Source of the DNA: Halosimplex rubrum
Lineage (GTDB): Archaea > Halobacteriota > Halobacteria > Halobacteriales > Haloarculaceae
Assembly (NCBI RefSeq): GCF_013415885.1
Contig: NZ_CP058910.1
Coordinates: forward strand, 372,001-436,000
DNA: 64,000 nucleotides
Reading direction: 5' to 3'
Below the pieces are notes generated by a model. That model made no database searches. It worked only from the letters and a program-made list of their open reading frames with translations, and had not been told where the DNA came from. The number at the start of each line of letters is the position of its first letter. Positions within the stretch are counted from its first letter, which is position 1. Position numbers and translations under genes: made by a program. Below are positions 30,798 to 40,277 of this stretch, in pieces.

Positions 30798-31181
30798 ATG
30801 GACGACCGGGCTCCGATCTACGCGGCCGCCGCTGGGGTCATCGCGCCGGTGGCGACCGTCCGTCTCGTCGGCGGCGCGGTCGACGCTGGCGTCCTCAACC
30901 CGCTCGTCGGCCTCGTCGTCCTCTTTCTCGGCCCCGTCCTCGGGATCGTCTGGGTCGTCTCGGCGGCCTGGAAGCTCGGCCTGACCGACTGGGACCCCCT
31001 CGACCGCTTCCGCACGCGGGCCACCGTCCGCGAGGACATCCCCGCGCAGTTCCACGACGCCATCGACCACGAGACGCTGGACGCCGAGAAAGAGGAGGGG
31101 AAGATCCCGACGAACCTGTTCGTCTACGGCCTCGTCTACCTCGTCGGCGTCCCGATATTCGCGGTCGTGTTCATCCTCTAG
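30798..31181 (+). CDS. Hypothetical membrane protein, three or four helices
   Basis: A 127-aa membrane protein. Hydrophobic segments run at residues ~5-27, 33-58 (LVGLVVLFLGPVLGIVWVVSAAW) and 108-127 (FVYGLVYLVGVPIFAVVFIL). A ~45-residue acidic loop (REDIPAQFHDAIDHETLDAEKEEG) lies between. No family name is recognised. Its stop overlaps the stop of the convergent DUF5817-like gene by three bases, a compact tail-to-tail arrangement. Confidence 0.75.
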   Translation: MDDRAPIYAAAAGVIAPVATVRLVGGAVDAGVLNPLVGLVVLFLGPVLGIVWVVSAAWKLGLTDWDPLDRFRTRATVREDIPAQFHDAIDHETLDAEKEEGKIPTNLFVYGLVYLVGVPIFAVVFIL

Positions 31182-31699
31182 AGTAGTCGGTAGGTCCCGC
31201 GGTTCTCCGTCGCCTCGCCCGCCCGGACGAGCTTTTCGAGCGTCTTTCGGGTGTACTCGGCGTCGACGCCCCGCTCGGCGGCGTCCTCGACGACCGCGTC
31301 CTCGGTCGCCTCGTCGACCTCGCGAACGGCGTCGCGGACGCGCTCTTTGCGGCTCTTCGACCCGCTCGACTCCATCGCCCGCTCGCCCGCCTCGGCGACC
31401 GCGTCGGCGTCGAGTCCCGACCCCTCCAGATACTCGGTGTCGGAGGGCCCCACGTCGTCGAGCTGGCGCTCCATCTCCGAGAAGGAGTCGAGTTCGGCGA
31501 AGGCGTCGCCGTGGCCCTGGCGGTTGGCGAGCATCGACGCGCGCACCTCCCGGGCGTGGTCCTCCTCGTCGGTGGAGACGAACTTCTTGCGCTTTGCGTA
31601 CTGGCGGGTCGTCCCGCAGCGGGGACACTGGCTGGTCTCCGGGCGCCCCTCGACGACCCAGAGCATCGAACAGTCGCTACAGCCCACGACGGCGTACAT
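31178..31699 (-). CDS. DUF5817-like zinc-ribbon protein
   Basis: A 173-aa soluble protein. The N-terminal ribbon YAVVGCSDCSMLWVVEG with SQCPRCGTTRQY has two CxxC pairs. A charged helical middle follows, and a C-terminal winged-helix-like segment (VEDAAERGVDAEYTRKTLEK, AGEATENRGTYRLL). The order matches the haloarchaeal DUF5817 family, possibly an RNA/DNA-binding protein. ATG 31699 is chosen over GTG 31702. It lies immediately downstream of the uracil-DNA glycosylase remnant. Confidence 0.8.
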   Translation of the reverse strand: MYAVVGCSDCSMLWVVEGRPETSQCPRCGTTRQYAKRKKFVSTDEEDHAREVRASMLANRQGHGDAFAELDSFSEMERQLDDVGPSDTEYLEGSGLDADAVAEAGERAMESSGSKSRKERVRDAVREVDEATEDAVVEDAAERGVDAEYTRKTLEKLVRAGEATENRGTYRLL

Positions 31700-31791
31700 C
31701 ACTGATGGCTATCGCGCCCGCCGGTATCAACGTTCGGCAAGCGCGGCGGACGTGGTTCCGGCGTATCGCGGCGGCACATCGGGCCGCGACG

Positions 31792-31983
31792 CTACTCCCC
31801 GACCGCCGCGACCGTCTCCCGGATCGCCGCGACGTACTCCTCACGAGAGTATCCGAGTCGACCGATCCACACCTCCTGGTAGGAGGGATGCACGAGCGGG
31901 ACGAGCCCACTCGCTCCAGCGACGACTTCATTCACGGCGTGCTCGAGCGGCTCTCGTGGGCCACCGAGCACAGTCCTCGTCGT
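31792..31983 (-). pseudogene. Uracil-DNA glycosylase, C-terminal remnant
   Basis: The minus-strand frame ending TAG 31792 encodes about 60 residues with TRTVLGGPREPLEHAV and SGLVPLVHPSYQEVWIGRLG. The HPSYQ segment is the C-terminal motif of family 4/5-type uracil-DNA glycosylases of haloarchaea. Upstream of about 31983 the frame loses similarity and no start is plausible. The matching N-terminal remnant lies at 32914-33042, with an unrelated insert between. The domain centre (about 100 residues, including the catalytic and Fe-S parts) is missing, so the gene is dead. Confidence 0.75.
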
Positions 31984-32061
31984 CCGACTCAAGTTCAGCC
32001 ACGTCGAGGTAGTAACCAATACGAAGAGATTAGTGCCAAGGGACAGGATGACCATAATACA

Positions 32062-32604
32062 GTGAATCTGTCGTCACGGGCCGTTTCACCAGTCATAGCG
32101 AACATTCTAATGGTCGCTACTGTGGTGATACTCGCTGCGACAGTTTCGGTGTTTGCGCTCGGTTTCGTCGACGAGGCTAACCAGCCCGGCCCCGTTGTTG
32201 GTCAATCGAGTGGTGAACTCCTGACACAAGACGGGTTCGATGGCGGAATCGTTAACATCACACACGTTGCAGGTGACACCTTATCCGCATCTGCCCTCGA
32301 AATCGCTGTCGATGCACAGGGCGCCTGCGGGAAGTCCGGTCGGTTAGTGAACCTGCCAGCGAGTGGTGGCGACCCGGTACCGACGAGCGAGTATGTTCGA
32401 GGCGACGATATTTTCGACAACTCATATAACTCAGTGGGCGGGCCAATTGGCGAAGCAGGCGGTCAGTGGCAGGCAGGCGAGACGGCAACGTTCCGAATCG
32501 CCGGGACGCCATGTCAACTTGATAGTGGTGATACGATTACCGTTCGCGTCGTCCACACGCCGACGAACTCGGTGGTAATCAAAGAGACACTGACCGTGAC
32601 GTAG
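32062..32604 (+). CDS. Type IV pilin (archaeal class III signal)
   Basis: A 180-aa archaeal pilin. It begins MNLSSRAVSPVIANILMVAT, the class III prepilin signal in which the peptidase PibD cuts near SSRA/VSPVI. A hydrophobic assembly helix follows to about residue 37, then a beta-rich secreted domain with two Cys (ACGKSG, TPCQLD). The GTG start is fixed by the signal motif. The gene is visibly more AT-rich than the surroundings and sits inside the broken glycosylase gene. No pilus ATPase or membrane platform gene is near, so it would rely on machinery elsewhere. Confidence 0.88.
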   Translation: MNLSSRAVSPVIANILMVATVVILAATVSVFALGFVDEANQPGPVVGQSSGELLTQDGFDGGIVNITHVAGDTLSASALEIAVDAQGACGKSGRLVNLPASGGDPVPTSEYVRGDDIFDNSYNSVGGPIGEAGGQWQAGETATFRIAGTPCQLDSGDTITVRVVHTPTNSVVIKETLTVT

Positions 32605-32691
32605 GTCAGTCCGATTCAGTCTTCGTCGTTCGGTTCTCGTCCTGCCACCCGTGAGAGATGAGACAAGCACGACGCGACCCACTGCATAGAC

Positions 32692-32793
32692 ATGCCTGAA
32701 CAGAACGTCGGTGGCTGTGACCGACTTGCCTGCGCACTACTCGCCGCCCTGCTGACTGTCGTGGCCATCAGTAGTACCGCATTCGTAGAGTAG
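32692..32793 (+). CDS. 33-residue hydrophobic peptide after the pilin gene
   Basis: ATG 32692 to TAG 32793 encodes MPEQNVGGCDRLACALLAAL followed by LTVVAISSTAFVE: a short polar start with two Cys and one membrane helix. It lies 87 nt downstream of the pilin within the same AT-richer insert. It is too short for domain recognition. It could be a pilin-associated membrane peptide or chance. Confidence 0.35.
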   Translation: MPEQNVGGCDRLACALLAALLTVVAISSTAFVE

Positions 32794-32913
32794 GCGTCGC
32801 TGGCGTAGCCCGCGTCGGGCGCTTCGCCGCCAAGGAGCACCGTAGAATATGATAGACATCGCTCGGACGACCGTATGACAGCCTGCGATCGACCGTGCAA
32901 ACGCTTTCACATT

Positions 32914-33042
32914 CTACGATAGCCCGGTATCCCCGGGGCCGTTGCCCCAGGCGATGCGCTCGCGACACTCCGTGAGCGCGGGGCAGCGCCGGCAGTCCTC
33001 GGCGAGCGCGTTTCGGGTGTCGGGGTCGGGGAACTCGGGCAT
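32914..33042 (-). pseudogene. Uracil-DNA glycosylase, N-terminal remnant
   Basis: From ATG 33042 the minus strand encodes MPEFPDPDTRNALAEDCRRC, then PALTECRERIAWGNGP and a stop seven codons later. CRRCPAL and WGNGP are the N-terminal iron-sulfur-cysteine and active-site loop motifs of family 4-type uracil-DNA glycosylase. Similarity stops at about 32930, the right edge of the insert. With the C-terminal remnant at 31792-31983 it shows one gene disrupted by replacement of its middle with a pilin-bearing segment of about 0.9 kb. Confidence 0.78.
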
Positions 33043-33054
33043 CGATCGGCTGGG

Positions 33055-33624
33055 TCACTCGGCCCCGGTGACGCCGCGCCAGGCGCGACCGGGCAGCGCG
33101 AGGACGGTCGCGAGGCCGGGGTAGCCGTCGGCCCGCCAGACGACGGCGGCGACCCCGACGAGCAGGAACTCGAAGGACAGCTCCGGCGAGAGGTCGACCA
33201 GCGCGAAGTGCGCCGCGAAGCTCTGCTCGACCTCGGACTCCAGCGGCGGGACCGCGGGCCACAGCATGAACCCGGCCTCGCGGAACTCCAGGGCGACCAG
33301 CGAGTACAGCGCGTCGCCGAACGTGTGGACGAGCGCGCCGATCCCGAACGCGACGACGAGCGGCTCCTCGCCCTCCTCGCGGGCGGCGGCGACGGTGTAC
33401 AGCAGCGCGACGACCGGCCCGACGACCAGCAGCGAGTGGGCGAGCGACCGGCCGGTCGGCAGGATCGACAGCGTCCACGCGAGCGGCTTGTCGACCAGAT
33501 CCGGAAACTGCGACCCGAACGCGACGACCAGCGTGGCCGCCGCGGTCGGGCGGTGACCGCGGCCGAATCGGGCGTAGAGACTGTAGACGAGATACGCCAT
33601 CGCGAGGTGTCCCCAGGGCCACAT
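33055..33624 (-). CDS. DUF457/YdjM-type membrane-bound metal-dependent hydrolase-like protein
   Basis: A 189-aa polytopic membrane protein: WPWGHLAMAYLVYSLYARFG at the start, then GSQFPDLVDKPLAWTL, GRSLAHSLLVVGP and ALVHTFGDALYS. The repeated H/D residues at membrane edges are those of the YdjM/LexA-regulated DUF457 hydrolase family. Start ATG 33624 is preferred to the GTG before it. It was the gene directly upstream of the now broken glycosylase gene (12 nt apart). Confidence 0.85.
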   Translation of the reverse strand: MWPWGHLAMAYLVYSLYARFGRGHRPTAAATLVVAFGSQFPDLVDKPLAWTLSILPTGRSLAHSLLVVGPVVALLYTVAAAREEGEEPLVVAFGIGALVHTFGDALYSLVALEFREAGFMLWPAVPPLESEVEQSFAAHFALVDLSPELSFEFLLVGVAAVVWRADGYPGLATVLALPGRAWRGVTGAE

Positions 33625-33775
33625 CACCGGAGGGGAGGGCCGTCCGGTTCTTACGTGTGTCGGCTCTTCGACCGCGCTCCGGGGTGGGACGCCGTCGCGG
33701 TCGGTCGCCGCCCGTCGCCCGCCACCCTCGACCGGTTCTGAAAGGCATATGCGCCTCGCGGCCGTCGGGGCGGGT

Positions 33776-34864: not shown

Positions 34865-35284
34865 ATGCGTCGGGTCACTCGCAACGCCGTCCTGTTGATC
34901 CTCGGAGTGGTGGTCGCGCTGCTCGCGCTCGGTGCCCTCCCGTCGCTGCTCGCGAGCGGCGACCCCTACTACGTCACCGCCGAGCCCGTCGACGGCAACG
35001 GGTCCGCCGACGGGTCCGGCGCGGCGGCCGTCGACGCCAGCGCCGCCGTCAACGGCTCCGCGCTCTCGGAGCGACAGTACCCCTACACCACGCAGGCACT
35101 CCGCAACGGCACCTCCGACGGCTACCGGGAGGGACCGTGGGGGTTCAAGGAGGCGTTCACCCACTCGCCGTTCGACGAGCGGTCGGCGCTCTCGGCGCGC
35201 AACGCGACCGCCGTCTCCGAGTCGGGCGTGCTCGTCTCGTACAACGGCACGCTTTACCGGGTCGCGGTCGGACAGCGACCATGA
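34865..35284 (+). CDS. Exported or membrane-anchored hypothetical protein
   Basis: A 139-aa protein. One N-terminal hydrophobic helix (AVLLILGVVVALLALGALPS) is preceded by Arg residues (uncleaved anchor or signal), and an extracellular domain follows with several N-glycosylation sequons (NGSA, NGTS, NGTL). No family is recognised. Its stop overlaps the start of the first NUDIX gene (ATGA at 35281-35284), so it heads a four-gene translationally coupled operon. Confidence 0.75.
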   Translation: MRRVTRNAVLLILGVVVALLALGALPSLLASGDPYYVTAEPVDGNGSADGSGAAAVDASAAVNGSALSERQYPYTTQALRNGTSDGYREGPWGFKEAFTHSPFDERSALSARNATAVSESGVLVSYNGTLYRVAVGQRP

Positions 35285-35922
35285 GCGACCCCGACGACGG
35301 CGACGGCGTCGACGGTACCGACGCCGACCGAGAACGGACCGACGACGGTGCGCCGACTGTCGACCCCGCGGCGGACGGACCGGTTCGCGAACCCGACCAC
35401 GAGTGGCGGGTCACCGACCGCGAGGCGGAGTACGAGACCGGCTGGTACACCGGCGGCTACGACCGCGTCGAGCAACCGGACGGCACCGAGAAAGAGTACT
35501 ACTGGGCCGAGCTCCCCGACGCCGTCGTCGTCGTCGCGCGGTCCGGCGACGACCTCGTCCTCGTCGACCAGTACCGGCCGGTCATCGGCGAGCAGTGCCT
35601 CGAACTCCCCGCCGGCATCGTCGAGGACGGCGAGTCGTTCACGGCCGCCGGCGCGCGCGAACTCCGCGAGGAGACCGGCTTCGACCCCGCCGGCATCTCG
35701 CTGATCGAGGACTTCTGGTGTTCGACCGGCGTCCTGCGCCACCGCCGGGGCATCGTCTTCGCCGAAGGCCTCGAACCGGTCGAGCGCAAGCTCGACGGCA
35801 ACGAGTTCCTCTCGGTGACGACGGTCCCCATCGACGAGGCGCTCGAGGTGGCGCGGCGCCAGCCCGCCAACGACGCCACCATCGAAGGGGTGTTGCTCGC
35901 GAAGGAGGACGGGCTGCTGTGA
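35281..35922 (+). CDS. NUDIX hydrolase, first of three tandem copies
   Basis: A 213-aa NUDIX hydrolase. The Nudix box at 112-134 keeps G, E118 and the R-E-L-R-E-E-T-G core (GIVEDGESFTAAGARELREE). The preceding DDLVLVDQYRP and following FDPAGISLIEDFW are typical of ADP-ribose pyrophosphatase-like members. It has a ~40-residue acidic N-terminal extension. Stop and next start overlap (GTGA, 35919-35922). The substrate is not fixed by sequence; nucleoside diphosphate sugars or ADP-ribose are likely. Confidence 0.9.
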   Translation: MSDPDDGDGVDGTDADRERTDDGAPTVDPAADGPVREPDHEWRVTDREAEYETGWYTGGYDRVEQPDGTEKEYYWAELPDAVVVVARSGDDLVLVDQYRPVIGEQCLELPAGIVEDGESFTAAGARELREETGFDPAGISLIEDFWCSTGVLRHRRGIVFAEGLEPVERKLDGNEFLSVTTVPIDEALEVARRQPANDATIEGVLLAKEDGLL

Positions 35923-36521
35923 GCGGGGACGACGACCCGGGAGCCGACTCGGCGGACGAAACCGGGACCCACCCCTGGGAACGCGAGGACCCGGCGTGGC
36001 CCGTCCACGGTCGCGAGGTCGTCTGGGAGACGGATTTCTTCGAGGCCGGTCAGGACGTGGTCGAGCGGCCCACCGGCGAACGGGCGGAGTACTACTGGCT
36101 CGAACCGGGCGACGCGGCCGTGGTCGTGGCCTTCACCGACGACGAGGAAGTCGTCGTCGTCGAGCAGTACCGCCCGCGCCTGCGTCGCTACTCGCTCGGG
36201 CTCCCCGGCGGCGGCGTCGAAGCGGGGGAGGACCCTGCGGTCGCCGCGGCCCGAGAGTTACGCGAGGAGACCGGTTTCGTCGCCGGCGACCTGCGGAAGC
36301 TCGACGCGTACGTCCCGACGCCGTGGACGCGCTACACCCGCCACGTCTTCGTCGCCACCGACCTCGACCGCGGCGAGCGCGACCTCGACGACGCGGAGTT
36401 CGTCGAGTGGGAGACGGTCCCCGCCGACGAAGCGGTCGGCCGGCTGCGCGAGCGCGAGGGACCGGCGAACGGCATCTCGCTGCTGCCGCTGTTACTCGCC
36501 CGCGAGGAGGGACACCTGTGA
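35919..36521 (+). CDS. NUDIX hydrolase, second of three tandem copies
   Basis: A 200-aa paralogue of its neighbours. The Nudix box at 98-120 begins GGGVEAGEDP and ends ARELREETGF with all catalytic Glu residues. FFEAGQDVVERPTGERAEYY aligns with the first copy. The start is GTG 35919, overlapping the previous stop. ADP-ribose or related pyrophosphatase activity is expected; divergence of the substrate-side loop (YVPTPWTRYTRHVF) from copy one suggests a different substrate. Confidence 0.9.
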   Translation: MSGDDDPGADSADETGTHPWEREDPAWPVHGREVVWETDFFEAGQDVVERPTGERAEYYWLEPGDAAVVVAFTDDEEVVVVEQYRPRLRRYSLGLPGGGVEAGEDPAVAAARELREETGFVAGDLRKLDAYVPTPWTRYTRHVFVATDLDRGERDLDDAEFVEWETVPADEAVGRLREREGPANGISLLPLLLAREEGHL

Positions 36522-37123
36522 CCGACGGCGGGAGGCCGGCCGAGCCGACTCCCGCGAGCGCCGCCGACCTCGACGACCCGCCGGCCGACGCCGGCGCCGG
36601 CTGGACCCGCCTGGACACCGAAGTCGTCTGGGAGAACCCTTACTTCGCGGCCGGCTACGACGAGTACCGCCAGCCCGACGGCGCGGTGAGCCGCTACTAC
36701 TGGATCGACCCCGGCGACTTCGTGGCCGTCGTCGCCGAGACGCCCGACGGCGAGGTCCTCTTGCTCGAACAGTACGACGCCCGGCTGGATCGGTCGCTGC
36801 TCACCGTCCCCGGCGGTGCCGTCGACGACGGCGAGTCGTTCGTCGACGCGGGCGTCCGCGAGTTGCGCGAGGAGACGGGGTTCCGCGCCGGCGAGGCGGA
36901 GCTACTGGAGGTGTTCGAACCGACGGCGTGGACCCGGATGACCCAGGCCGTCGTCTACGCGACCGGCCTGGAACCCGGACGCGCCGAGCGCGAGGGCGGC
37001 GAGGACATCGAGGCGTTCGCCGTCCCCGCCGACGAAGCCGTGGCCGCGGTCCGCTCGCGCGAGGTCCCGTTCGCCGCCTCGCTCGTCTCGCTGCTGGTCG
37101 CCCGCGACGAGGGGCTGCTGTAG
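36518..37123 (+). CDS. NUDIX hydrolase, third of three tandem copies
   Basis: A 201-aa paralogue with an intact Nudix box at 100-122 (GAVDDGESFVDAGVRELREE). GTG 36518 overlaps the stop of copy two (GTGA). EPTAWTRMTQAVVYATG is closer to copy two than to copy one, so copies two and three probably arose by the later duplication. It is co-translated with the other two. The functional reason for three coupled NUDIX enzymes is unknown. Confidence 0.9.
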   Translation: MTDGGRPAEPTPASAADLDDPPADAGAGWTRLDTEVVWENPYFAAGYDEYRQPDGAVSRYYWIDPGDFVAVVAETPDGEVLLLEQYDARLDRSLLTVPGGAVDDGESFVDAGVRELREETGFRAGEAELLEVFEPTAWTRMTQAVVYATGLEPGRAEREGGEDIEAFAVPADEAVAAVRSREVPFAASLVSLLVARDEGLL

Positions 37124-37889: not shown

Positions 37890-39062
37890 ATGGATCGAGA
37901 CGACTTCGGCGAAGCGGCGCCCGGCGAAATCGTTCCAAGTACGACTCCGAAAGGGACATACTCGGCATTCCGGCCGGCCTCACTGCCGCCTTCGATCAGC
38001 ACTGACGACCTCGTTACCCCGCTGGCAGAAGCGACGCAAGCGCTCGGTCGACTTCACGGAATCGGGCCGCGTGTCGGTTCGAGAGAGATCCTCATCGAAC
38101 CGTTCATTCGGAAAGAAGCACTGGAATCTTCGCAGATTGAGGGGACACACGCTACGCTGTCAGACATCTACGCATACGAAGCCGGACAGGAAGCGCTCAT
38201 CGACGAGGACAGGCGACAGGGCACCCAGGAAGTCGTGAACTATCTCCGGGCGCTCACACACGGATTAGACGCGATAACCGCCGGTGATCCCATCACTACC
38301 GAGCTGTTGTGCGAGATGCACTATCGCCTGCTCTCTGGAGTCCGTGGAGACAGAGCCGATCCCGGCGAACTCCGGACGACGCAGAACTTCATCGGTAGCA
38401 CTCCGTATATCCAGGACGCGCGATACGTCCCCCCGCCACCGAGCGAGATTCCGGAGTTACTAGAGGACCTGCTCGAATACGCCAACGAGGACACCGACCT
38501 CCATCCGTTACTTCGCATCGGACTGATCCACTACCAGTTCGAGACGATTCACCCGTTCCTCGACGGGAACGGACGGCTGGGACGGCTCCTGATCAGTCTG
38601 CTCCTGCAGCGCGATGGACTGCTACCGGAACCATATCTCTATCTGAGTTCGTATTTCAACGCACGACGCTCGGAATACGTCGACCACCTGCTGGCGGTCA
38701 GTCAGCGTGGAGAGTGGGTGGAGTGGCTGCTGTTCTTCCTGCGTGGTGTCCAATCGCAGGCCGACGAGGCACACCGGCGGGCGGACTTACTGGTCGATCT
38801 TCGCGAGGACTACCAGCGACGCTATCAGAGCGAACGGTCGGGGAACATTCTCGAACTGGTTATGCGTCTCTTCGAGGATCCGTACCTCGACGTCAATACG
38901 GCAGCCGAGTGGCTGGAGGTCGAGTACAGCACGGCTAACCGACTCGTCGGGCGGCTCGAAGACGACGGGGTACTTGAGGAACTCACCGGGAAGGATCGCA
39001 ATCGGTTCTACCGCGCCAACGAGGTTTTCGACATCATCAACAAGCCGATCGATCGACTCTGA
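37890..39062 (+). CDS. Fic-domain protein with C-terminal winged helix
   Basis: A 390-aa Fic protein, expected to transfer AMP (or another nucleotide part) to target proteins. The active-site motif HPFLDGNGRLGR at 221-232 is complete. The inhibitory helix motif SSQIEG (80-85) lies N-terminal, making this a self-inhibited class II Fic. The N-terminal Fic_N-like segment (1-75) and a C-terminal winged helix (~320-385, LDVNTAAEWLEVEYSTANRL) complete the architecture, which suggests DNA binding and autoregulation. The gene is AT-richer than its surroundings and bounded by the direct repeats at 37651 and 39101. ATG 37890 is chosen over GTG 37872. Confidence 0.92.
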   Translation: MDRDDFGEAAPGEIVPSTTPKGTYSAFRPASLPPSISTDDLVTPLAEATQALGRLHGIGPRVGSREILIEPFIRKEALESSQIEGTHATLSDIYAYEAGQEALIDEDRRQGTQEVVNYLRALTHGLDAITAGDPITTELLCEMHYRLLSGVRGDRADPGELRTTQNFIGSTPYIQDARYVPPPPSEIPELLEDLLEYANEDTDLHPLLRIGLIHYQFETIHPFLDGNGRLGRLLISLLLQRDGLLPEPYLYLSSYFNARRSEYVDHLLAVSQRGEWVEWLLFFLRGVQSQADEAHRRADLLVDLREDYQRRYQSERSGNILELVMRLFEDPYLDVNTAAEWLEVEYSTANRLVGRLEDDGVLEELTGKDRNRFYRANEVFDIINKPIDRL

Positions 39063-39100
39063 CAGCCTACCCAGAGAAAATCTATTACTAGAAATCGGGC

Positions 39101-39135
39101 CTCAGTGGGGTAACTGCTCGTCATCGCCACCGTGA
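39101..39135. repeat. Island direct repeat, copy 2
   Basis: The 35-bp copy lies 38 nt after the Fic stop. It lacks one G of the G5 run. It is followed by the second conserved block (AAAAGCTCGTTTATC, 39158-39172), which could serve as the TATA element of the next gene, whose GTG start is about 29 nt further on. The repeat therefore carries a promoter-like part with it. Confidence 0.75.
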
Positions 39136-39196
39136 GATATTACTCCGGCACAGGTCAAAAGCTCGTTTATCCGGGACGGGCACAGCGGGCCACAGC

Positions 39197-39796
39197 GTGA
39201 GCGCCGCAATTACCACGGACGGGCTCTTGGCCCACAGTATGGACCGCACTCCGGAGTCGTTTGCCGAGGCACTCGCTTCCGGCGACACCGGCCGCGTGAA
39301 CGAGGCAATCGACACGATCGAAGCAGTCGATTCGGCTGTGCGCGCCGAACAGTATGCGGCGCTGTTCGACGCCTGCTATCCGGTCTACGAGAGCGACGAC
39401 GGCTACGTCCGCCAGTCGGTCGTTCGGTTCTTGCGCGATGCCTATCCGATGCTCGAACTTACGATCGCCGCCAGCGAAACAGAGCGCATCGACGGCTACA
39501 CGATCGACGACCTGCGCGAGAACAGGACTCGTCTCGTCGAGTTCCTGCTCGAAGCACTCGAAGACGACGACGGACGAGTCCGGACAGCCGCCGTCGACGG
39601 CTTCGACACGCTCGGCGTCGCGATCGACCTGGCGGAGATCGACGCCGAGAAACAGGTGCTACTCGAAGAACTCGACGACCGTACCAGCGACCTCCCCGAG
39701 GAGAAAGCCAAACACGTCGAGGAAGCGAAGCGGTCGGTGGCGCGAATGGATTTGGTCGGCAGTCTCGTCGCAGACCTCGATCTCGATGTCCCGTGA
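39197..39796 (+). CDS. HEAT-like helical protein in accessory island
   Basis: A 199-aa helical protein with paired-helix units (DGYVRQSVVRFLRDAYP, DDGRVRTAAVDGFDTLG) that look like HEAT repeats. A charged coiled segment (ELDDRTSDLPEEKAKHVEEA) follows. No enzyme motif is present. Similar proteins occur next to haloarchaeal toxin-antitoxin genes, but I do not know a function. GTG 39197 fits the TATA-like CGTTTATC 29 nt upstream; ATG 39239 (MDRTPESFAEAL) is an alternative start. It shares its cassette with the CopG-PIN pair. Confidence 0.7.
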   Translation: MSAAITTDGLLAHSMDRTPESFAEALASGDTGRVNEAIDTIEAVDSAVRAEQYAALFDACYPVYESDDGYVRQSVVRFLRDAYPMLELTIAASETERIDGYTIDDLRENRTRLVEFLLEALEDDDGRVRTAAVDGFDTLGVAIDLAEIDAEKQVLLEELDDRTSDLPEEKAKHVEEAKRSVARMDLVGSLVADLDLDVP

Positions 39797-39833
39797 GTGT
39801 GACCGATCTACTGTCGCAGGAGTGGCGCCTCCG

Positions 39834-39892
39834 TGTGCAAGATTTGTGCATTCTGACGCAATCCTTATCAATCTGTGTGCAGAATATGCACA
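39834..39892. promoter_or_regulatory. Operator-promoter of the CopG-PIN pair
   Basis: Upstream of ATG 39897 are TGTGCA repeats: a direct pair TGTGCA-N5-TGTGCA (39834-39850) and a perfect inverted pair TGTGCA-GAATA-TGCACA (39876-39892). Between them lies TATA-like CTTATCA (39864-39870), about 30 nt before the start. The layout is that of an autoregulated toxin-antitoxin promoter with two ribbon-helix-helix dimer sites, one overlapping the transcription start. Confidence 0.65.
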
Positions 39893-39896
39893 TCGA

Positions 39897-40277
39897 ATGA
39901 GCGCGAGTGACGATCCCCGACGAGTCCACTTCCAGTCGCCCGAGTCCCTCGTCGATCAGCTTGACGCCATCGCGGACCTCCTGGGTACGGATCGGACCGA
40001 CCTGCTCGTCGAAGCGATCCGCGAGTACATCGAAGAGACCGCGCACAGCGACCAGTTCCAGGAACTCGTCGCCCAGCGGTACTACGACGACGAACTGGAC
40101 TTCGAGACGGTCAAGCGACTCGTCGACCCCGAGACAGCCCAGCGGTTTCGGCTCCTCAAGGCCGACCTCGACGGAGAGCCCCACGATCTCGCCGCGCCGG
40201 AGGAAACTGACATCTACAACGGTGATCGACGGTCCGTGTCGCCCGAGGCGTCTGACGAGTCGGCAGACCAGCGATGA
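39897..40277 (+). CDS. CopG/ribbon-helix-helix antitoxin-like protein
   Basis: A 126-aa protein. An N-terminal ribbon-helix-helix (RRVHFQSPESLVDQLDAIAD, then LLGTDRTDLLVEAIREYI) would bind DNA as a dimer. The C-terminal part (YDDELDFETVKRLVDPETAQ) is the likely toxin-binding arm. The stop overlaps the PIN gene start (ATGA 40274-40277), the usual antitoxin-toxin coupling. Operator-like TGTGCA repeats precede it. Confidence 0.85.
   Translation: MSASDDPRRVHFQSPESLVDQLDAIADLLGTDRTDLLVEAIREYIEETAHSDQFQELVAQRYYDDELDFETVKRLVDPETAQRFRLLKADLDGEPHDLAAPEETDIYNGDRRSVSPEASDESADQR

Follow-up and report, generated by a model that had tools for sequence, protein, structure and literature searches.

Three lesions in a uracil-DNA glycosylase superfamily gene of Halosimplex rubrum, one of which brought in a pilin gene with foreign affinity

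Introduction

How does a pilin gene come to lie between the two ends of a DNA glycosylase gene in a haloarchaeon? The question is raised by positions 31792 to 33042 of the window, by which we mean the whole 64,000-nucleotide stretch of the Halosimplex rubrum chromosome that was analyzed (NZ_CP058910.1, positions 372,001 to 436,000). The chromosome is represented by one contig of 4.48 Mb with 100% completeness. An earlier note, made from the letters alone, had described the locus as a uracil-DNA glycosylase (UDG) gene replaced in its middle by a pilin-bearing segment, and had proposed the recent gain of a surface pilin at the cost of a repair gene. By comparing the locus with its relatives, we arrived at a different reading, to which we assign a probability of about 0.85: a dead UDG-superfamily gene that was hit three separate times, i.e., by a small inverted-repeat element, by a 102-nt deletion, and by foreign pilin-bearing DNA that replaced 234 nt.

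Materials and Methods

The genus comparison comprised eight genomes, including that of H. rubrum (G000) and seven others (G001 to G007). The genus was searched with the DNA of the locus and the fetched stretches were read; the protein-family search gave the same six intact orthologues. Lesion anatomy was determined by small-word alignment of the minus strand of the window with intact genes, together with a codon-level comparison. The Ka/Ks ratio of the pilin gene was calculated on three relatives (G019, G142, and G133), with G086, G078, G085, and G077 left out. Copies of the 80-bp element were sampled at 33 loci, namely, the window copy, 14 others in the same genome, and 18 from G004 and G007. 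A filled and an empty site of the element were compared at the glycosylase locus only.

Results

In six of the seven other genus genomes (G001, G002, G003, G005, G006, and G007), an intact UDG-superfamily gene of 211 to 222 amino acids adjoins the YdjM-like gene at the same place as the remnants in the window, a pattern far from chance. The gene of G002 scored 82.6 bits against PF03167 (cut-off, 24.3), which places it in the UDG superfamily. The scores of the intact orthologue against the two family 4 models, TIGR00758 and NF040953, were below the cut-offs (75.2 versus 250 bits for one and 66.8 versus 125.3 bits for the other), so that we call it family 4-like only and regard uracil excision as its putative activity. 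The genes flanking the site in the window are both intact. The YdjM-like membrane protein gene (33055 to 33627, minus strand; PF04307) lies beside the site in all seven relatives, and the DUF5817 gene (31178 to 31702, minus strand; PF19134) lies near the glycosylase site in several of them; where aligned, the flanking genes showed 80 to 94% DNA identity to those of the relatives.

Judged from its alignment with the intact genes, the UDG-superfamily gene of the window is a pseudogene with three lesions, and its remnants match no Pfam or NCBIfam family. Three remnants were recognized, all on the minus strand. DNA alignment and codon comparison assigned codons 1 to 40 and the first base of codon 41 to the N-terminal remnant (32922 to 33042), which along about 112 nt is 91 to 92% identical in DNA to the genes of G002 and G005. 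The middle remnant (32776 to 32837) consists of codons 42 to 48 fused to codons 83 to 96, seen as two matches offset by 102 nt. The C-terminal remnant (31792 to 31906), delimited by DNA alignment, begins at about codon 175 in G002 numbering and showed 91 to 93% DNA identity to G002 and G005. Compared with G005, the remnants carry 5 nonsynonymous and 10 synonymous differences (Ka, 0.036; Ks, 0.22).

The first lesion is an 80-bp inverted-repeat element inserted at a TA target in codon 41; the stop codon that it carries by itself ends the glycosylase reading frame after residue 42. The second is an in-frame loss of 102 nt, corresponding to codons 49 to 82 and bounded by short imperfect repeats, whose sequences in G005 are CCCGCCGCGGGC and GCCGACGCGGGC. 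The third is a block of 869 nt (32775 down to 31907) in place of 234 nt in the relatives. Altogether, the intact gene has lost 336 nt, or 112 codons (102 plus 234 nt). Apart from the in-frame deletion, each of these lesions alone would surely be fatal to the gene.

This anatomy alters the two-part picture of the earlier note, which overlooked both the element and the middle remnant. The N-terminal remnant had been drawn from 32914 to 33042; this holds down to 32922, but the last in-frame codons and the stop belong to the element, since the glycosylase frame runs into it and immediately meets TAG, which accounts for the end of that open reading frame at 32914. Similarly, the C-terminal remnant had been drawn from 31792 to 31983, which agrees with the DNA alignment over 31792 to 31906 but not over 31907 to 31978, where no match to the glycosylase DNA of the relatives examined was seen. 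The note had put the loss at about 100 central residues; 112 codons are counted here, and positions 32776 to 32837 still encode part of the supposedly absent region. The general outline stood: minus-strand glycosylase ends surround an AT-richer block with a plus-strand pilin gene, and the exchange of 234 nt for 869 nt is a replacement and not a simple insertion.

The replacement block (31907 to 32775) has a GC content of 57.3%, compared with 70.9% for the window and 70 to 73% for the genes on either side. When the insert was sought in other genomes, as the earlier note had advised, its plus-strand part from 31979 to 32773 proved to be homologous end to end, with 75% identity, to one stretch (L157:3984-4778) of G142, which belongs to another genus. 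In G142, the pilin gene is followed by an intact YgaP-like gene (PF11127, E = 3.8e-11 for the L157 copy), and a phage-type integrase gene lies about 1.2 kb from the pair. In the window, the YgaP-like transmembrane gene (32692 to 32793, plus strand; weak PF11127 match, E = 0.0091, below the cut-off) is truncated, with 33 amino acids left: about 27 of its codons remain before the foreign sequence gives way, at about 32773 to 32775, to the glycosylase remnant, into which the frame continues. The left-junction stretch of 72 nt (31907 to 31978) gave no convincing DNA match among the relatives examined. A 163-base query (31900 to 32062) gave short matches in 10 of 392 order-level genomes, including its own; these were near chance level and were not used. 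At the protein level, 31907 to 31978 showed weak similarity to some orthologues of other genera, starting from residues 24 to 26 of an 87-aa open reading frame. We considered whether the C-terminal remnant came from a different allele, given that residues 24 to 48 of this minus-strand frame are slightly glycosylase-like, and rejected the idea, as no DNA match was seen there in an alignment that took 20 loci and located the gene in 18 of them (G031 and G070 were left out). Elsewhere in the window, a further lower-GC stretch (about 60%, versus 71% for the window) lies at 38001 to 40000, and three adjacent plus-strand frames at 35254 to 37123 resemble Nudix hydrolases with a REETGF motif, which we take to be possibly a tandem family.

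The gene in the block (32062 to 32604, plus strand) encodes an archaeal type IV pilin of 180 amino acids with a GTG start at 32062 and a RAVSPVI signal sequence. A fragment starting downstream of the GTG matched PF07790 (E = 1.7e-10; 42 bits; cut-off, 25.2), and the pilin matched TIGR02537 (E = 1e-8; 34.5 bits; cut-off, 20). A longer joined frame (31594 to 32604, 336 aa) was rejected as the gene, as a GTG start giving 180 aa agrees with the pilin signal and with the related proteins. Among 146 family genomes, the best matches outside its own genome were 75 to 88% identical and were found in G019, G086, G142, G078, and G085, all of other genera than Halosimplex, whereas the identity to pilins of its own genus was 35 to 40% in six genomes among the matches listed, G007 being outside that listing. 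Horizontal acquisition is the natural reading of these identities, and the foreign character that the earlier note had attributed to the pilin was thus borne out.

In other genera, the close relatives of the pilin are solitary genes of lower GC content that adjoin various core genes (L155, L156, L158, and L159); their neighbors include genes for NAD synthase in G019, a LeuA-type protein in G086, chorismate synthase in G078, and a ZIP transporter in G085. Plasmid relatives were at most 58% identical (six records), and no viral relative was found in one scan of viral contigs whose reach was limited to close relatives. The Ka/Ks values were 0.079/0.712 (0.11) against G019 and 0.112/0.751 (0.15) against G142, which implies purifying selection on the lineage, mostly before the insertion. 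The pilin gene came with its upstream region, and its prepilin signal is intact; it is therefore probable that the pilin is expressed and that it is processed in the manner of other stand-alone pilins, a prediction made from the signal sequence.

The element of the first lesion (32840 to 32919) is 80 bp long, carries terminal inverted repeats, reads TAG on the minus strand, and was delimited by its multiple copies, their boundaries, and a hairpin fold. On one side it adjoins the target dinucleotide TA (32920 to 32921; codon 41 is GTA in G002); on the other, the second target dinucleotide (32838 to 32839) has decayed to CA on the plus strand, or TG on the minus strand. Short, multicopy, without coding capacity, and with terminal inverted repeats and a target-site duplication, the element has the features of a miniature inverted-repeat transposable element (MITE). 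Thus, the earlier remark that no transposase is present holds for the gene itself, but a transposon-type event did take place. Seventeen matches were obtained in its own genome, 6 in G004, and 33 in G007, and none in the other five genus genomes; the element being nearly palindromic, a few of the matches in its own genome are reverse-strand self-matches of one copy. The sampled copies are 80 bp long (one is 79 and one 82 bp), their inverted ends span about 16 bp, and 26 of the 33 have TA on both sides, the window copy having decayed on one. The TA target recalls IS630/Tc1-mariner elements, and an autonomous transposon of that type is suspected. Folded as a single-strand hairpin, two well-kept copies had z-scores of −7.6 and −11.7, and the window copy had one of −2.1.

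The window copy differed on average at 15.6 of 80 positions from 12 copies of its own genome and at 11.3 from those of G004 and G007, whereas the copies of its own genome differ among themselves at 6.9, which implies that it is an old or separate copy. An attempt to find the empty site of another copy (L199) failed, as its flanks lay at separate places in other genomes. A search of 142 family genomes with the repeat end gave matches in 6 of them: those listed for G000, G004, and G007 are mostly 80-bp pairs, among which no transposase gene bearing the element's inverted repeats was found, and G023, G047, and G067 have single matches. Besides, an 81-bp match with 84% identity was found on two Halocatena marina plasmids (NZ_CP109982.1 and NZ_CP110252.1), in a noncoding gap that, according to the annotation of NZ_CP109982.1, has a BNR-repeat gene on one side and a glycoside hydrolase gene on the other, indicating that the element family extends to another genus. 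We also observed another palindromic repeat, about 86 bp long (L264:684-769 and copies), with the ends TGATACGGAT...ATCCGTATCA. It has matches in seven of the eight genus genomes, some of which involve nothing but the shared core. In this core the repeat is similar to the 80-bp element, whereas the outer arms differ; some copies begin at the apparent stop codon of a gene, and an Rfam search with the L264 locus gave no match.

The locus is variable in the genus. The glycosylase gene is also absent from G004, in which 873 bp with a heliorhodopsin gene lie between the same flanks (L117:2186-2974 on G004:C1; PF18761, E = 8.4e-101; NF038020, 358 bits, cut-off 100) and all that is left of the glycosylase gene is about 58 nt at its end. 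In G001, G003, G005, and G006, a GAF histidine kinase gene adjoins the glycosylase gene, lying between it and the DUF5817 gene (L115:2315-3907, L118:2496-4073, L119:2387-4156, and L116:2417-4009; domains read from L115). No histidine kinase gene separates the DUF5817 gene from the glycosylase site in the window or in G002, where the two are neighbors, and none was seen in the G004 stretch.

As the earlier note had suggested, we searched the H. rubrum genome for other glycosylase genes and found that three UDG-superfamily genes remain. Two are 41% and 27% identical to the lost gene, and the third has no real match to it. The first two have partners in all eight genus genomes, according to the family search and translated comparison. 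The lost gene was therefore one of several, and its loss, as far as these homologies tell, need not have meant a loss of uracil repair; the supposed cost of the pilin to DNA repair is weak.

Discussion

The three lesions may have arisen as follows. A nonautonomous inverted-repeat element would have inserted at the TA of codon 41, presumably in trans by a TA-targeting transposase, and would have put a stop codon into the glycosylase frame. The 102-nt stretch would have been lost between the short imperfect direct repeats. Foreign haloarchaeal DNA, carrying the pilin gene and the start of the YgaP-like gene, would have been exchanged for 234 nt by illegitimate recombination in a deletion-coupled insertion. 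Any of the three could have been the first. That the remnants are not strongly decayed leaves little time for three successive events, and it is possible that the second and third lesions come from one compound event.

If the pilin DNA arrived first, it killed a working glycosylase, and the element and the deletion followed. We hold this order, which is what the earlier note proposed, only as a tentative one: the low decay of the remnants relative to G005 suggests that the gene died late and the pilin frame is intact, but the element copy has diverged further than the adjoining remnants, and it would by itself have stopped the frame. The opposite order, in which the gene had already been killed by the element when the pilin arrived, we consider to have nearly an even chance. 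It accords with the in-frame stop that the element brought and with the age that the divergence of the window copy suggests; on the other hand, an already diverged copy may have moved, so that the divergence may predate the insertion, and no intermediate strain is at hand. Thus, a recent gain at the expense of the repair gene is partly supported, being one of two possible orders, and it overstates the cost: the remnants do show little decay, whereas the element copy lies on average 11 to 16 positions in 80 from its relatives, and with the element and the deletion as further lesions, the arrival of the pilin need not have been what cost the gene.

That the pilin block is a mobile cassette with defined ends, inserting itself into genes, is suggested by the lone lower-GC relatives near unrelated core genes in several genera. 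We nevertheless regard it as very unlikely: most of the pilin loci share little beyond the pilin, with homology stopping at or near the gene, so that they show no common unit with fixed ends; the copy of the YgaP-like partner in the window is truncated; and the block edges have no convincing terminal repeats or target duplications. To a misassembly of unrelated pieces we give hardly any credence, as the genome is a complete single contig with both flanking genes in place, and as the remnants are collinear, with three independent interruptions within 1.25 kb and a sequence drift of their own. Moreover, the remnants were not found to match two different genes, nor was a relative found with the same order and an intact gene. 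Three stacked lesions in one dead gene remain our reading, and the locus illustrates that several such lesions can make a pseudogene look like a one-step replacement.

The replacement by a heliorhodopsin gene in G004 raises the idea that the glycosylase site is a favored exchange point, where one coupled insertion-and-deletion process brought in two different membrane-protein genes at the expense of the same gene, the pilin here and the heliorhodopsin there. We think this improbable. If it were true, the site would be a bounded natural test case for the deletion-coupled insertion mechanism, which has been called undescribed; in any case, since a second species has lost the same gene to an unrelated one, the site lends itself to studies of how insertion and deletion are coupled.

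Among known systems, the intact orthologues resemble family 4 UDGs in matching the superfamily above its cut-off and differ from them in scoring under the family 4 cut-offs. The pilin shares with archaeal type IV pilins the N-terminal signal and hydrophobic domain, and its RAVS processing site is the same as one listed for Haloferax pilins (PMC4371748); it does not deviate from them in its family match, but it stands alone inside a broken gene. For the lesions themselves, the closest counterparts lie in two strains of Haloquadratum walsbyi. In the comparison of these strains (PMC3119063), 64 deletion-coupled insertions are described, in which unrelated sequences occupy the same position and insertion is tied to loss, by a mechanism that the authors term "undescribed," together with deletions between short direct repeats, MITEs, and small mobile repeats. 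Our first lesion fits the MITE type and the second fits the repeat-mediated deletion type. The element is like the haloarchaeal MITEs and small mobile repeats in its short inverted repeats, multiple copies, patchy distribution, and lack of a transposase; the small mobile repeats of Haloquadratum are given there as having no target duplication, whereas most copies of our family are flanked by TA (PMC3119063). No parent transposon of the element was found among the listed matches of its repeat end.

The third lesion is a deletion-coupled insertion in the sense of that study, with 869 nt for 234 nt at one position and conserved flanks. It shares with the H. walsbyi cases the unrelated DNA at exactly the same position, the loss of host sequence, the haloarchaeal host, and the medium size class (0.15 to 1.5 kb), and one of those cases likewise exchanges a region encoding a surface protein; it differs in that species, and not strains, are compared here and in that the target is a UDG-superfamily gene (PMC3119063). 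Thus, the locus is a gene swap of a known haloarchaeal sort and an ordinary example of genome turnover, and with its ends placed to within a few bases and intact relatives for comparison, it offers a well-bounded case of how haloarchaea gain foreign genes while losing their own.
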